A DNA stretch of 64,000 nt from Fibrisoma limi BUZ 3 (GTDB lineage: Bacteria; Bacteroidota; Bacteroidia; Cytophagales; Spirosomataceae): contig NZ_CAIT01000006.1 in NCBI RefSeq assembly GCF_000296815.2, forward strand, positions 1,618,777 through 1,682,776, in the 5' to 3' direction. The translations under genes and the position numbers were made by a program. Positions 5,419-9,062 of the stretch are shown one piece after another; position 1 is the stretch's first letter, and every line of letters begins with the position of its first letter. The notes below the pieces were generated by a model. It was not told the origin of the DNA. It saw nothing but the letters and a program-made list of their open reading frames with translations, and did no database searches.

Positions 5419-6462
5419 TTATTCGTTTTCCGGCACCGTCAGGGCTTGACTCGCTTCGTAGCGCATGGTAGCAGCAGCCAGTCGCTGTTCAAGCCGGTGG
5501 CGAAGGCGGGCCGGTGCCAGCACCACCATTCCATCCCCGAAGCCCAGCACCTCGCGCTCCAGTTCGAAGTTCAACTGGACTTTCAGTTCGATCACAACAC
5601 CATCGTCACGTCGTTCAACAACCTGCTGCGACGCATGTAAAGGTTTGGTCTCTACATAGGGGGCCTGTTCCAGCGCTACCCAGATCAGTACCCGGCATGC
5701 CCGCATGGTCGTGCTAACCGTCACCCCGATCACATCCCGGTAGAACACATCAGGATCGATGCCCGGATTAGGGCGATACGTCACCTCGTCGGCCAGTTGT
5801 ACAGCCTGCATGCGATCCAGCGCCAGATTGACAACCTCGAATTGTTTTTCCCGAACGCCCACGGCGAACCAGCGGTTTTTATACTCTTTCAGCCACCAGA
5901 TTTGGAAACAGAATTGGCTAGGATTACGAGCCTGAAAGGCTTGATACATAATCTTCACCGGCTTCTGCTGCACGACCGCCTGGTAGAGCATGTCGAGGTA
6001 AACTAACCCTTTCAGGTTCTCATTTTTCTCGAAATCAATGACAGATTGGTTGTTCGTGGCCGCCGAGTACACGTGCGCTTCGAGTTTCTGCACTACTTCG
6101 TTCAGTTGCTCAAAATGCGAGAAGCCTTTGAATTGCCTTAATACCTCAACGGCCGCGCTCATCCGGCCGAGGTCCTGCCCCGTCAGTGGGATCTGCGTGA
6201 TGCTGTAGCCGGGATCTTCGTAGGCGTAATACTTTTTGCCAATCACCACGATGGGCGCATTGTACCCCAGCTTATCGCTGCGCATCATCTGAATGTCGGC
6301 CTGGATCGTTCGGCGACTGATGCCTTTCACAATCCCCTCGTATTCGTAGAGGGCTTCCGACACTTTTTCGATCAGATCATCGAGCGTCCATTTCCGGTAC
6401 CGGTTTGTCAGGCAAGTATCAATGGCACGGTAACGAATCAGGGCGTTGCGGTTGGCGGGCAT
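5419..6462 (-). CDS. WYL-domain transcriptional regulator divergent from the Ro60 gene
   Basis: The protein has 347 residues: an N-terminal winged helix (about 1-75, with GISRRTIQADIQMM as likely recognition helix), a linker (about 85-140) and a WYL domain (about 150-245) whose signature appears as WWLKEYKNRWFAVG. A C-terminal WCX-like extension (about 255-340) follows. WYL proteins are regulators thought to sense nucleic acids or nucleotides. The gene is divergent from the TROVE gene with about 110 bases between start codons. I infer that it controls the Ro60/Y RNA transcript, replacing the RtcR activator of enterobacterial RNA-repair operons. Activator or repressor is not decided by sequence. 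Confidence 0.87.
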   Translation of the reverse strand: MPANRNALIRYRAIDTCLTNRYRKWTLDDLIEKVSEALYEYEGIVKGISRRTIQADIQMMRSDKLGYNAPIVVIGKKYYAYEDPGYSITQIPLTGQDLGRMSAAVEVLRQFKGFSHFEQLNEVVQKLEAHVYSAATNNQSVIDFEKNENLKGLVYLDMLYQAVVQQKPVKIMYQAFQARNPSQFCFQIWWLKEYKNRWFAVGVREKQFEVVNLALDRMQAVQLADEVTYRPNPGIDPDVFYRDVIGVTVSTTMRACRVLIWVALEQAPYVETKPLHASQQVVERRDDGVVIELKVQLNFELEREVLGFGDGMVVLAPARLRHRLEQRLAAATMRYEASQALTVPENE

Positions 6463-6482
6463 GGAGGGCGCAAAATTTTTTA

Positions 6483-6525
6483 GAAAAATCTTGAAAATTT
6501 TTCAACTGCGCAAAAAGGCTGCGCA
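6483..6525. promoter_or_regulatory. Inverted repeats between the WYL and TROVE genes, possible operator
   Basis: Two symmetrical elements lie side by side. GAAAAAT (6483-6489) and ATTTTTC (6497-6503) form an inverted repeat with a 7-base spacer. TGCGCA occurs at 6507-6512 and again at 6520-6525, each itself a palindrome. Their position between the divergent starts makes them candidates for binding the WYL regulator. An approximate -7 box (AACCTTTG, ending at 6542) lies downstream facing the TROVE gene. Function is inferred. Confidence 0.4.
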
Positions 6526-6574
6526 GGAGGGCTAAACCTTTGTATCGTCAAGGTTGACACAAACGCCAAAGACC

Positions 6575-8098
6575 ATGAAATTCAACATCCGCAACCAGAA
6601 CAAAACGGTAAACTATGAGGGCGCTCAAGCCTTCACGTTGACTCCTGAGATGGAGCTTTACGCGGCTGTCGTTACGACTATGTTGAATGACAGCCACTAC
6701 GAAAAGACAGATAGCCGACTAATTCGCATCAGGGAGTTGATCGGTCAGGTCAATCCGGCGTTTGTGGCTAAGCTGGCAGTGTACGTTCGTAAAAAAATGT
6801 ATTTGCGCACAGCTCCGGTTATGCTCGTCGGCGAACTGGCCAAGGTTCACAACGGTAATAAGCTGGTCGGTAACGCCATCGGCCGGGTCGTACAACGCCC
6901 GGACGAAATCACGGAGCTGCTGGCCTATTACCAATTGACCAACGAGCGCACCGGCACGAAAAAGCTGAACCGCGTTTCGAAACAGGTGCAGAAAGGCCTG
7001 GCAACAGCCTTCAACAAGTTTGACGAGTACCAGTTCGCCAAGTATAACCGCGACACGGCCGTGAAGCTCCGCGATGCGTTATTTCTCGTCCATCCAAAAG
7101 CAAAAGACGAAACCCAACAAGCCGTTTTCAACAAGCTTGTCAGCGGTTCGCTGGCAACACCATACACCTGGGAAACCGAGTTGAGTGCATTGGGGCAAAC
7201 CAAGTTTGCAACCGACTCGGAAAAAGAGGCTGCCGTCCGGGCGAAATGGGAAGCGTTGATCGACAGCGGCAAAATGGGCTACATGGCTACCTTGCGGAAC
7301 CTTCGTAACCTATTGGAAGCTGGCATCAGCGCGGTTCATGTCGAAAAAGTATGCGCGCTGCTGGCCAACGAAAAAGCCGTCCGAAATGCCAGGCAGTTGC
7401 CGTTTCGATTCCTGGCGGCCTACCGCGAACTGACGCTGTTGAAACTAGGGCACGTTCCGATGGTGCTGGAGGCACTGGAAGACGCAGTCTATGCCAGCAC
7501 GGCTAATCTGCGCGGTTTTGGAGCCGATACCCGTGTGGTTGTAGCCTGCGACGTATCAGGATCGATGCAGCAGGTAGTTTCACCGAAAAGTAAAGTGATG
7601 CTCTACGACATTGGTTTACTCCTTGGTATGTTGCTGCAATCGAGATGCAGGCATGTGCTGAGCGGTATGTTCGGCGACAAGTGGAAAACGATCAGCCTGC
7701 CGACGAAACACGTACTGACCAATGTGAGCGAGTTCTACCAGCGCCAGGGTGAGGTTGGTTATTCAACCAACGGCTACCTCGTGCTCGACGACCTGATCAA
7801 GCGCCGATACGTAGCCGACAAGGTGATGTTTTTTACCGACTGCCAGATGTGGGACAGCGCAACCAGGAACCAGGTAGCTACGAATACCCTGGCTGCCAAG
7901 TGGACAAAGTACAAGCAGATTGCGCCCAATGCGAAATTATATCTGTTTGACTTAGCCGGCTATGGACAAGCACCATTGCGAGCAGAGAACAACGACGTTT
8001 ATCTGATCGCGGGTTGGTCAGACAAAATATTTGACGTATTGCAAGCCCTCGAAGAAGGGCAAACGACGCTGAGCCTGATTAACGAAATCGCGCTCTGA
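6575..8098 (+). CDS. rsr: TROVE-domain protein, bacterial Ro60 orthologue (Rsr)
   Basis: About 507 residues from the ATG at 6575 (MKFNIRNQNKTVNYEG); the frame extends seven codons up to a TTG, but the ATG fits the family start better. The TROVE HEAT-like ring spans about residues 10-320, and the von Willebrand A domain about 320-500, with an intact MIDAS start (VACDVSGSMQQ, the DxSxS motif). Ro60 rings bind the ends of misfolded RNAs in the channel and Y RNAs on the outside; bacterial Rsr works with exoribonucleases in RNA decay. The stop codon is only six bases before the first of four structured RNAs, so gene and RNAs are probably one transcription unit. The divergent WYL gene is the likely regulator. 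Confidence 0.93.
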   Translation: MKFNIRNQNKTVNYEGAQAFTLTPEMELYAAVVTTMLNDSHYEKTDSRLIRIRELIGQVNPAFVAKLAVYVRKKMYLRTAPVMLVGELAKVHNGNKLVGNAIGRVVQRPDEITELLAYYQLTNERTGTKKLNRVSKQVQKGLATAFNKFDEYQFAKYNRDTAVKLRDALFLVHPKAKDETQQAVFNKLVSGSLATPYTWETELSALGQTKFATDSEKEAAVRAKWEALIDSGKMGYMATLRNLRNLLEAGISAVHVEKVCALLANEKAVRNARQLPFRFLAAYRELTLLKLGHVPMVLEALEDAVYASTANLRGFGADTRVVVACDVSGSMQQVVSPKSKVMLYDIGLLLGMLLQSRCRHVLSGMFGDKWKTISLPTKHVLTNVSEFYQRQGEVGYSTNGYLVLDDLIKRRYVADKVMFFTDCQMWDSATRNQVATNTLAAKWTKYKQIAPNAKLYLFDLAGYGQAPLRAENNDVYLIAGWSDKIFDVLQALEEGQTTLSLINEIAL

Positions 8099-8104
8099 CA
8101 ACTA

Positions 8105-8240
8105 ACAGGATGTCGTAGGGGCGGGTTACTTCGCTCACCATTGGGGAAGAATAGTGTGATTCTTAACGTAGGATGAGACTATCCGGTGCAAATCCGGAAT
8201 GCGGTGCCCCAGACCCGCCCCGCCTGTTACTCCTGTTTTT
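8105..8240 (+). ncRNA. Y RNA-like RNA 1 (YrlA type)
   Basis: Outer stem ACAGGA (8105-8110) pairs with TCCTGT (8231-8236). A 7-base loop TGTCGTA (8111-8117) faces a 9-base loop GCCTGTTAC (8222-8230). The inner stem GGGGCGGGT (8118-8126) pairs perfectly with ACCCGCCCC (8213-8221). The 5' strand GGGTTACTTCG resembles the GGGTTAT side of the Ro-binding helix of animal Y RNAs. Inside are a hairpin AAGAAT/ATTCTT (8147-8164) and a 5-bp arm with a T-loop-like 7-base loop (8182-8198, loop TGCAAAT). No D-arm is obvious. A T-run follows the outer stem. It starts six bases after the Ro60 stop codon. Confidence 0.8.
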
Positions 8241-8253
8241 AATTGTTTGTAGG

Positions 8254-8367
8254 TGCAGTTGAGCAGAGTTCGCGCTACGGTGGACCGCTTCGTTCGATTG
8301 GTTGAAACCGGCAGGGGGAGTTGGGGTTCGAATTCCGGTTTGTTCTCTGTTCGCCTGTTACACTGCA
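8254..8367 (+). ncRNA. Y RNA-like RNA 2, divergent copy
   Basis: Outer stem TGCAGT (8254-8259) pairs with ACTGCA (8362-8367), and inner stem GAGCAGAG (8261-8268) pairs with CTCTGTTC (8345-8352) through one G-U pair. The 3' loop GCCTGTTAC (8353-8361) is identical to that of RNA 1. The 5' loop TGYCGTA seen in the other three copies is missing: a single T separates the two stems. A GGGGTTCGAATTCC segment (8323-8336) looks like a T-arm with a TTCGAAT loop and a short stem. No D-arm is clear. It may bind Ro60 differently, or be decaying. Confidence 0.65.
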
Positions 8368-8375
8368 TTGTTCTT

Positions 8376-8505
8376 AGCAAGTGCCGTAGTATTGCGTTAC
8401 TTCGGAAGAGCATCCCTTTGGGGAAGGCTGCGAGTTCGATTCTCGCTCCCGAGCAGTCGGGATAGCTCAACAACATCTCAAACGCTGTACGCCTGTTGCC
8501 TTGCT
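8376..8505 (+). ncRNA. Y RNA-like RNA 3 with circularly permuted tRNA-like domain
   Basis: Outer stem AGCAAG (8376-8381) with CTTGCT (8500-8505); loops TGCCGTA (8382-8388) and GCCTGTTGC (8491-8499); inner stem GTATTGCGTT (8389-8398) with AACGCTGTAC (8481-8490), one mismatch. Between them lie the parts of a tRNA in permuted order: D-stem half GAGC (8408-8411), hairpin TCCC/GGGA (8413-8424) in the anticodon-arm place, a perfect T-arm with TTCGATT loop (8430-8446), acceptor-like stem TCCCGA/TCGGGA closed by GCAG (8447-8462), bases TA, and the other D-stem half GCTC (8465-8468). The Y stem thus sits in the D-loop of a closed tRNA fold. YrlA RNAs are known tRNA mimics. Confidence 0.82.
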
Positions 8506-8520
8506 TACAATAAACACCGT

Positions 8521-8665
8521 AACCGGTGCCGTAGAATAGGGTTACTTCGACTGTTAATCAGGCGGACGCCGGTTCGAGCCCGGCCTTTGGAAACATCCCG
8601 GGATGATCCAGAGTAGCTCAGTGGGTAGAGCACCAAAACGTACCTTATTCGCTTTTTGCCCGGTT
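8521..8665 (+). ncRNA. Y RNA-like RNA 4 with complete D-arm and T-arm
   Basis: Outer stem AACCGG (8521-8526) with CCGGTT (8660-8665); loops TGCCGTA (8527-8533) and GCTTTTTGC (8651-8659); inner stem GAATAGGGT (8534-8542) with ACCTTATTC (8642-8650), one G-T pair. Inside are a stretch like a tRNA-Asn anticodon loop (CTGTTAATCAG, 8551-8561), a perfect T-arm (8568-8584, loop TTCGAGC), an acceptor-like stem CTTTGG/CCAGAG (8585-8613) capped by the palindrome CATCCCGGGATG (8594-8605), and a textbook D-arm TAGCTCAGTGGGTAGAGCA (8614-8632). The T-arm comes before the D-arm and there is no free acceptor end, so it is not a tRNA gene. The T-run at about 8672-8680 may end the transcript. Confidence 0.82.
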
Positions 8666-8692
8666 GTAGTGTTTTTATTTTCATAAATTTTC

Positions 8693-8708
8693 ATCGCAAT
8701 ATTGCGAT
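8693..8708. promoter_or_regulatory. ArsR operator upstream of arsR
   Basis: ATCGCAATATTGCGAT is a perfect 16-base palindrome. It covers the -33 TTG (8702-8704) of the arsR promoter. ArsR-family repressors bind such short palindromes and leave when arsenite binds. A close variant lies before arsM at 9080-9095, which supports a real operator. Confidence 0.8.
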
Positions 8709-8731
8709 AAATAAATTAACCATTACCTTTG
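8702..8731 (+). promoter_or_regulatory. arsR promoter (-33 TTG and -7 TACCTTTG)
   Basis: TTG at 8702-8704 and TACCTTTG at 8724-8731 are separated by 19 bases, an ideal Bacteroidota promoter. The -7 box ends only four bases before the arsR ATG at 8736, so the message would have almost no leader if this start codon is used. Confidence 0.75.
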
Positions 8732-8735
8732 TCGC

Positions 8736-9062
8736 ATGGGAGTGACGAAGACTGAAGTATTTACGGTTGAGCAAAACCGGATTGCCGAACTTGCCAAAGC
8801 GTTCGCCCACCCGGCGCGGGTAGCCATTCTGCAATATCTGGTGGCCACCAAAACCTGCATCTGTGGCGACCTGGTCGATGAACTGCCTTTGTCGCAGGCC
8901 ACCGTATCGCAGCACTTAAAGGAACTGAGCCGCATTGGCATCATCAAAGGCAACATTCAGCCGCCACGGGTCTGCTACTGCATCAACGAACCTGTCTGGG
9001 ACGAAGTGAAAACGGTGTTTGGCGATCTGCTGGCTTCATTTACCGTGAACGAGTGCTGTTAA
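8736..9062 (+). CDS. arsR: ArsR-family arsenite-responsive repressor
   Basis: The protein has 108 residues, the typical ArsR/SmtB winged helix. The region [15 protein letters not shown] leads into [20 protein letters not shown], where the C-x-C pair sits at the start of the DNA-reading helix, the usual arsenite site of ArsR proteins. The end VNECC offers two more Cys. It heads the arsenic operon, with a palindromic operator over its own promoter and a second copy before arsM. No ribosome binding site is visible before the ATG, and the promoter almost touches it; a GTG at 8742 is an alternative start. Confidence 0.9.

Follow-up and report, generated by a model that had tools for sequence, protein, structure and literature searches.

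The window analysed here is a stretch of 64,000 nucleotides (nt) from Fibrisoma limi BUZ 3, a member of the Bacteroidota (RefSeq assembly GCF_000296815.2, contig NZ_CAIT01000006.1, positions 1,618,777 to 1,682,776 of the forward strand). To judge from its sequence, it very probably carries the gene for an Rsr (Ro60-type) ring protein together with a tandem set of that protein's Y RNAs. Comparison with related loci shows a predicted RNA module that is common to all units and bears exchangeable heads; in the fourth unit of the window, the putative head is a transfer RNA (tRNA) turned inside out, with its anticodon loop exposed. Bacterial Y RNAs imitate tRNA, and at these loci the likeness can be followed base by base up to the anticodon arm, with triplets that change between close relatives, while ten units from Chryseobacterium imitate ribosomal RNA (rRNA) instead of tRNA. 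Combined with a broad comparative set, this lets the general likeness of Y RNAs to tRNA be recast as testable guesses on the target proteins or nucleases of each head.

The rsr product scores 113.4 bits (E 2e-32; cut-off 23) with the Pfam TROVE domain and 20.7 bits with vWA_Ro60, under the cut-off of 27.7; among PDB entries it matches a TROVE protein (2.5e-23) and 60-kDa Ro (1yvp, 7e-5). Six bases past its stop codon begins an array that spans 8105-8665, with units of 132, 114, 130 and 145 nt separated by gaps of 17, 8 and 15 nt (Table 1). An earlier reading made from the letters alone (the sequence-only reading) had placed four Y RNA-like units at these coordinates and this spacing, and was borne out, as it was in its loop motifs (TGYCGTA in three units, GCYTKTTRC in all four). 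Each of the four 6-bp stems that it described is present and pairs with itself; that of unit 2 is probably out of register, and the stem is longer than proposed, running from the 6-bp outer part through a bulged U, a G-C pair and a pyrimidine-purine (Y-R) pair to an internal loop. Overlooked at that stage were the predicted head of unit 4, which is a complete permuted tRNA, and the division of heads into classes.

All four units were matched on the forward strand by R1, a covariance model whose source sequences included none of the four, and which found no other match in the rest of the window at E up to 1. As predictions, units 1, 3 and 4 are secure and unit 2 is weak. Because several relatives read NGCAGG-TGCCGTA at the second-unit place, where they have units with a T-arm only, the 5' side of unit 2 should more probably be placed at TGTAGG-TGCAGTT, starting at 8248, although the stem is then poorer (5/6 pairs); the Y-R pair is missing in either register. 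Rfam gave nothing in the window at gathering score (STnc180, mir-4874 and tRNA lines in a loose-E scan were sub-threshold), and Tandem Repeats Finder detected no array at these units. With the YrlA model (RF02553), the comparison suggested by the sequence-only reading, only units 4 and 3 were seen, at 32.1 and 16.7 bits against a gathering score of 69; on seven other array loci the best score was 53.6 bits. Single-sequence folding, which it had likewise suggested, gave weak support (z -3.6, -0.8, -1.4 and -2.0 for units 1-4).

The shared Ro module consists of the 6-bp outer stem, free in sequence, the bulged U, the G-C pair, a covarying Y-R pair, an internal loop (CGUA / GCYUKUU) and an inner stem, and this common stem is probably the Rsr-binding part. 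Units were collected with a descriptor (S6-TGNCGT ... T[TC]NC-S6') that requires outer-stem pairing and picks the 3' end with a bonus for the Y-R pair. Because the descriptor demands pairing, a motif-only selection was also made (163 units, 85 loci). All six outer pairs are formed in 120/163 of these units (43/163 lack the full six) as against 25/156 pairings between neighbouring units, so the covariation claimed by the sequence-only reading lies above chance. The Y-R pair is standard in 142/163 and Watson-Crick in 125, compared with 68/156 between neighbours; among 219 descriptor units it reads CG in 99, TA in 97, TG in 13, AT in 2 and GC in 2, and is non-standard in 6. Alignment A1 holds 28 of 33 selected units chosen for good pairing, and its covariation counts are therefore an upper estimate: RNAalifold, run unguided on the 28, recovered Ro stem, inner stem, T-arm, acceptor and D-arm (32 pairs, 23 changed on both sides) and did not propose the anticodon stem. 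In our 36-pair structure, 95.2% of cells are paired and 235 cells are changed on both sides, as against 69 in shuffles; for the helix of the anticodon stem the paired share is 77%, and pair 29-41 fails in 17/28 units. All five omitted units come from Chryseobacterium loci and have the outer stem ATCAAG or GTCAAG. The motif-only stem test, the register test of the anticodon stem and the calling of un-permuted tRNAs give a fairer picture than the A1 figures.

By simple patterns, the 325 distinct units, from 99 loci, comprise permuted tRNA heads (118), a GGGG class with T-arm (45), heads with a T-arm only (80) or a D-arm only (6) and heads with neither (76). In permuted heads the T-arm comes first and the D-arm follows. 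An acceptor stem can form between the seven bases that follow the T-arm and the seven that precede the D-arm: in 116 units, all seven pairs form in 72 and at least five in 110, compared with about 10% and about 40% when halves are taken from other units. For the anticodon, a D-arm pattern was matched by 110 units, of which 99 had sufficient length; the variable loop was set at five bases. As a free search for loop 7-mers of own tRNAs proved weak (14/116 permuted units vs 3.2 shuffled; 9/114 others vs 5.4), the register was anchored on the T- and D-arms. In this register, anticodon-stem pairs 27-43 and 28-42 form in 95/99 and 99/99 units (41-47 with swapped halves), inner pairs 30-40 and 31-39 in 83/99 and 64/99, and U33 is present in 75/99, as against 41/100 and 43/99 in the neighbouring registers. 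U33, purine 37 and both inner pairs occur together in 35/99 units; six shifted registers gave 0-2 of 62-104. When units were rejoined in tRNA order with a CCA tail, two alternative junctions being tried and one call sufficing in test and control alike, ARAGORN called 97/99 as tRNA and placed the anticodon on the triplet expected in 87 of them; five sets of swapped halves yielded 43-49 and native order 1/110. Because the pairing, loop-register and ARAGORN tests all beat their swapped or shifted controls, a permuted head, as modelled here, is a complete tRNA with fused ends, into whose anticodon stem the Ro stem has been let on the 5' strand.

Un-permuted, unit 4 is called tRNA-Asn (gtt) by ARAGORN. 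Unit 3, the AGCAAG unit of the window, has a degenerate D-arm and no recognisable anticodon loop. Spirosoma-type units with the related stems AGCAAG, AGTAAG or GGTAAG show Asn GTT, Lys TTT, His GTG, Ile GAT, Met CAT and Pro TGG, and the triplets in the first unit of Flavobacterium loci include Ile GAT, Glu TTC and Lys TTT. Only three loci contain two units with a strict loop; triplets differ within each, and since three are too few we make no claim that arrays avoid repeated triplets. It is very improbable that the units are simply tandem tRNA genes, ordinary or degenerate, rather than Y RNAs. Such genes would explain the T- and D-arms, and R1 gives up to 49 bits on genuine tRNA-Lys genes in tandem, but neither ARAGORN nor Rfam found a tRNA in the window, the order of the arms is reversed, no acceptor end is free, and the Ro stem and its internal loop are conserved.

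A less easily dismissed view, though still an unlikely one, is that the heads are relics, pieces of tRNA or rRNA captured by recombination, so that only the Ro stem would matter and the anticodon loop would be a leftover. In favour of capture, unit 4 finds its best DNA matches elsewhere in the genome at a 3' fragment of tRNA-Asn and at the tRNA-Asn gene, two genomes have solitary units next to tRNA genes (L168 and L169; L and G numbers are our own for loci and genomes), and the head classes are very varied. Against it, the acceptor and anticodon-stem pairs of diverged units persist even where both partners have changed. The tRNA-Asn fragment is an orphan 3' end at C11:434893 (L002 1501-1553), about 29 kb from the tRNA-Asn gene, and resembles the attachment site of an integrated element.

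Unit 1, aligned with 29 GGGG-class units, gave a consensus of 34 pairs, 25 of them with changes on both sides; the simple patterns scored it as having neither arm because its T-like loop reads TGCAAAT. In 10/325 units, all from Chryseobacterium loci and none among window units 1-4, a stretch of 25-33 nt of 23S rRNA (E 8e-6 to 7e-13; best shuffled unit E 0.008) directly follows the inner stem's 5' strand, with 33/33 identity in L076. The match falls within 3670-3702 of L176, a stretch that we take to be H69-H71 and, presumably, the I-CeuI homing-endonuclease site. The remainder of one such unit gave no match to its own rRNA operon above shuffles, and three further unit matches to the rRNA operon (E 0.018-0.028) are at chance level. 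A group I intron was considered for these units and dropped, as an Rfam scan of L076, L086 and L090 gave no such match at E 0.01.

Relatives of rsr were numerous: of 253 in a named collection, the best 80 were kept as loci, and these fall in Spirosoma, Flavobacterium, Chryseobacterium, Taibaiella, Chitinophaga, Mucilaginibacter and other genera (one metagenome-assembled genome labelled Williamsia we take to be mislabelled). Five genomes are represented twice, once in each locus set (L010/L039, L015/L040, L016/L041, L018/L042 and L020/L043). Within 1.5 kb downstream of rsr, the descriptor found 219 units in 93/110 loci, none on the reverse strand and 0-2 in five shuffles; over the full length of the 80 named loci it found 280 units on the rsr strand and six on the opposite one. 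Among 222 genomes of the family, rsr was detected at E 1e-20 in 38 and strong R1 matches in 37, with rsr present in 36 of these; the line for a strong match was put at a gap seen afterwards (2.7e-15 vs 2.4e-12), and 12 of the 36 genomes had contributed sequences to R1, leaving 24 independent. Below the line lie two genomes whose rsr is a fragment only, G095 (L172; broken rsr, no R1 match) and G210. Weaker R1 matches at E 0.01 occur in 173/222 genomes. Position, motif, covariation and this co-occurrence with rsr give good support to the partnership of Y RNAs and a Ro60 protein that the sequence-only reading had predicted for the locus.

In many Chryseobacterium loci, 1-3 kb separate rsr from an array downstream of it (in one of them, L107 6595-7119, a DUF6584 gene stands between the two) and upstream of it in L112, G042, G100, G106, G107 and viral contigs. 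Co-transcription behind rsr, which the sequence-only reading had supposed for the window in the form of one precursor that would be cut into units, is therefore not general.

Several observations weigh against the identification as Y RNAs of Rsr, or against the anticodon arm as a general feature of the heads. At the level of loci, 17/110 have no unit in the 1.5 kb downstream, and G195 has a unit with no rsr within the 5.5 kb fetched. The rsr gene is split in G084 and G177, and its match contains a stop in G083 and G169, with strong R1 matches in all four nonetheless; G210 (L173) has weak R1 matches, with one weaker unit beside its rsr fragment. Among heads, 76/325 have neither a T- nor a D-arm, 24/99 lack U33, purine 37 is unspecific (79/99 vs 81/100 one register off), and the strict anticodon loop is found in only 35/99 and not in unit 3. 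In the window itself, unit 2 scores close to noise with R1, and many shuffled sequences fold as well as units 2 and 3.

Upstream of rsr, the window has a dyad whose exact sequence occurs only once in the genome. A pattern drawn up post hoc, after inspection of the data (TRCGCA-N7..10-TGCGYA), is found in the 180 nt before rsr in 71/80 loci, 60-98 nt upstream in 69 of them, compared with 42 copies elsewhere in 720,886 bases. Expression of rsr and the array is probably switched through this dyad, perhaps by the divergent WYL regulator. As a WYL relative lies upstream of rsr in 29/78 loci, so that the dyad is commoner than an adjacent WYL gene, the link between the two is only a guess. No sigma-70 consensus promoter was found in 6400-8800 by a scan that does not cover Bacteroidota promoters, and the sole terminator-like site in that interval is on the opposite strand.

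Eleven viral contigs carry an Rsr relative. R1 matches at 89-114 bits lie within about 350 nt upstream of rsr in L152, L157, L159 and L155, and the Y-R position is occupied by G-C in both units of L155; other matches on viral contigs score at most 49 bits, some of them over tRNA genes. Between 10 and 18 tRNAs were called in L154, L156 and L159, one of the L159 calls being the Y RNA unit itself, and L159 has a run of tRNA genes besides rsr and the unit. The solitary units beside tRNA genes (L168 3142-3280, reverse strand; L169 2681-2819, forward strand) lie on contigs other than that of rsr, and part of the latter is called tRNA-His by ARAGORN. R1 matches of 46-65 bits away from rsr in Spirosoma-type genomes were not counted as Y RNAs, the four that were fetched having no Ro motif by the descriptor. 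The Spirosoma-type loci L164, L165, L167 and L170 contain another RNA of about 125 nt, which scores 46-65 bits with R1 and lacks the Ro motif by the descriptor, with permuted T-arm, acceptor and D-arm and a second T-arm by eye, which scores 31-36 bits with the Rfam tRNA model in three of the four. In L171 (G221 C1:5441676), four near-identical tandem tRNA-Lys (ttt) genes give up to 49 bits with R1.

How might such an array work? We infer that the stem binds to Rsr in the manner of known Ro60-Y RNA complexes, while the head would determine what the ring encounters: it may recruit partners that bind tRNA (PNPase, tRNA-modifying enzymes), or it may fill the ring and compete there with head-like substrates. 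We advance this scheme tentatively, as having somewhat less than an even chance. Several units would then provide one Rsr with several heads, and the dyad would regulate their supply. On the broadest version, about which we are rather doubtful, the loci would form a modular display of baits or substrate mimics on a common Ro handle, in Bacteroidota and some viral contigs, diversified and switchable, with permuted tRNAs of changeable anticodon loop and, in some genomes, a piece of 23S rRNA, matching Ro60 activity or resistance to RNA-cutting toxins to particular RNAs.

Another reading turns on toxins: the units would be decoys or sensors that show the cleavage sites of RNA-cutting toxins and spare the real RNAs or signal an attack through Rsr. 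This we consider possible rather than likely. It would account for complete anticodon arms whose triplets differ between close relatives in the same stem class or place, for a 23S rRNA segment at one fixed place in ten units, and for the 10-18 tRNA calls in three of the eleven Rsr viral contigs (a strong unit match in L159, at most 31 bits in the other two). The WYL regulator has PADLOC hits, and YrlA has been proposed as a competitor against an anticodon nuclease (PMC7790460). On the other side, no nuclease partner was identified among those neighbours that were annotated (some only), RtcB was not found in the genome, PADLOC gave no hit for Rsr itself, an anticodon loop is absent from many heads, and YrlA was not a substrate of that nuclease according to the same paper. 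The high confidence expressed at the outset is for the identity of the locus as Rsr with its Y RNAs.

Around the array, the coordinates of Table 1 are complemented by an ArsR-type gene downstream. The host genome measures 7.63 Mb, its closest named relative by rsr is Spirosoma (78% identity), and in the only other genome of the genus rsr was not found at E 1e-20.

Table 1. Predicted features of the window, in window positions, and start points of the 23S-bearing units in their Chryseobacterium loci
Feature	Position	Strand	Remarks
WYL-WCX regulator, divergent from rsr	5419..6462	-	Pfam WYL and WCX; candidate reader of dyad
Dyad CTGCGCAAAAAGGCTGCGCAG, probable operator	6506..6526	.	upstream of rsr
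rsr, Ro60-type TROVE protein, 507 amino acids	6575..8098	+	open reading frame readable from 6554 too
Y RNA unit 1, GGGG-class head	8105..8236	+	R1 48.9 bits, E 2e-10
Unit 1 head parts	8143-8146 with 8207-8210; 8183-8197		GGGG with CCCC; T-arm-like hairpin
Y RNA unit 2, divergent	8254..8367	+	R1 17.3 bits, E 0.023; T-arm-like stretch 8323-8336
Y RNA unit 3, permuted tRNA-like head	8376..8505	+	R1 70.3 bits, E 7e-16
Unit 3 head parts	8430-8446; 8447-8453 with 8456-8462		T-arm; acceptor
Y RNA unit 4, complete circularly permuted tRNA head	8521..8665	+	R1 122.0 bits, E 5e-29
5' strand of the Ro stem of unit 4 (AACCGG, then bulged U, G and C)	8521..8529	+	partner 8658-8665
Unit 4 anticodon loop and part of stem (GA CTGTTAA TC, triplet GTT)	8549..8559	+	identical 11-mer in own tRNA-Asn gene
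Unit 4 T-arm	8568..8584	+	
Unit 4 acceptor stem	8585..8613	+	8585-8591 with 8607-8613; 15-nt loop in place of tRNA free ends
Unit 4 D-arm, nucleotide 26, first two anticodon-stem nucleotides	8614..8634	+	
23S-bearing units	L069 8453; L076 7606; L078 8524; L080 8330; L081 7297		
23S-bearing units	L086 6353; L090 7415; L092 7669; L109 7840; L118 7519		

The array has the broad marks of bacterial Y RNAs: it lies beside rsr, has a long covarying Ro stem with internal loop (weak in unit 2) and, in units 3 and 4, a tRNA-like domain. Bacterial Y RNAs and their tRNA-like domains are known already, as are the occurrence of more than a single Y RNA (yrlBA) and a case suspected in phage (PMC7790460, PMC8394870, PMC4726728 and PMC12282133). 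The nearest counterparts are YrlA-type Y RNAs such as those of the Salmonella rsr-yrlBA-rtcBA operon, which stand beside rsr in more than one copy and have a Ro-binding stem and a tRNA-like head (PMC8394870, PMC7790460) resembling the D, T and acceptor arms (PMC8394870). The units described here share with YrlA (RF02553) the place beside rsr, the multiple copies, the Ro-binding stem and, by the Rfam alignment, the head order T-arm, acceptor, D-arm; they differ in their sub-cut-off scores, in an added hairpin that completes the anticodon arm and in the Y-R pair in the internal loop. The locus differs too, having further head classes and none of the rtcB of an rsr-yrl-rtcBA RNA repair operon: no RtcB was found in the genome by a search that was positive in 9/14 control genomes.

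RYPER of Deinococcus radiodurans, as described in PMC4726728 and PMC8394870, joins a Ro60-type protein with a Y RNA and PNPase. The locus resembles it in the protein and the Y RNA and differs from it in its array of dissimilar heads and its WYL regulator. With metazoan Ro60-Y RNA complexes it has in common the TROVE protein and, as predicted, a bulged lower stem, and it differs from them in its tRNA-derived heads. Animal Y RNAs have a bulge in the lower stem. Transfer-messenger RNA (tmRNA) likewise carries a tRNA-like domain on a longer RNA, whereas neither a free acceptor end nor a tag reading frame was seen here, and Rfam scans of array loci gave sub-threshold tmRNA matches only (19.6 bits in L076 and 17.3 in L086 vs 47). 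Chen (2014) reportedly found Y RNAs close to Ro60 in over 250 species of bacteria and phages. Literature searches surfaced no paper on anticodon arms in Y RNAs, a weak negative, and none on rRNA copies in Y RNAs or a dyad operator of rsr, a weak negative from searches aimed at neither. Against this background, the anticodon arms, the rRNA copies and the operator look new.
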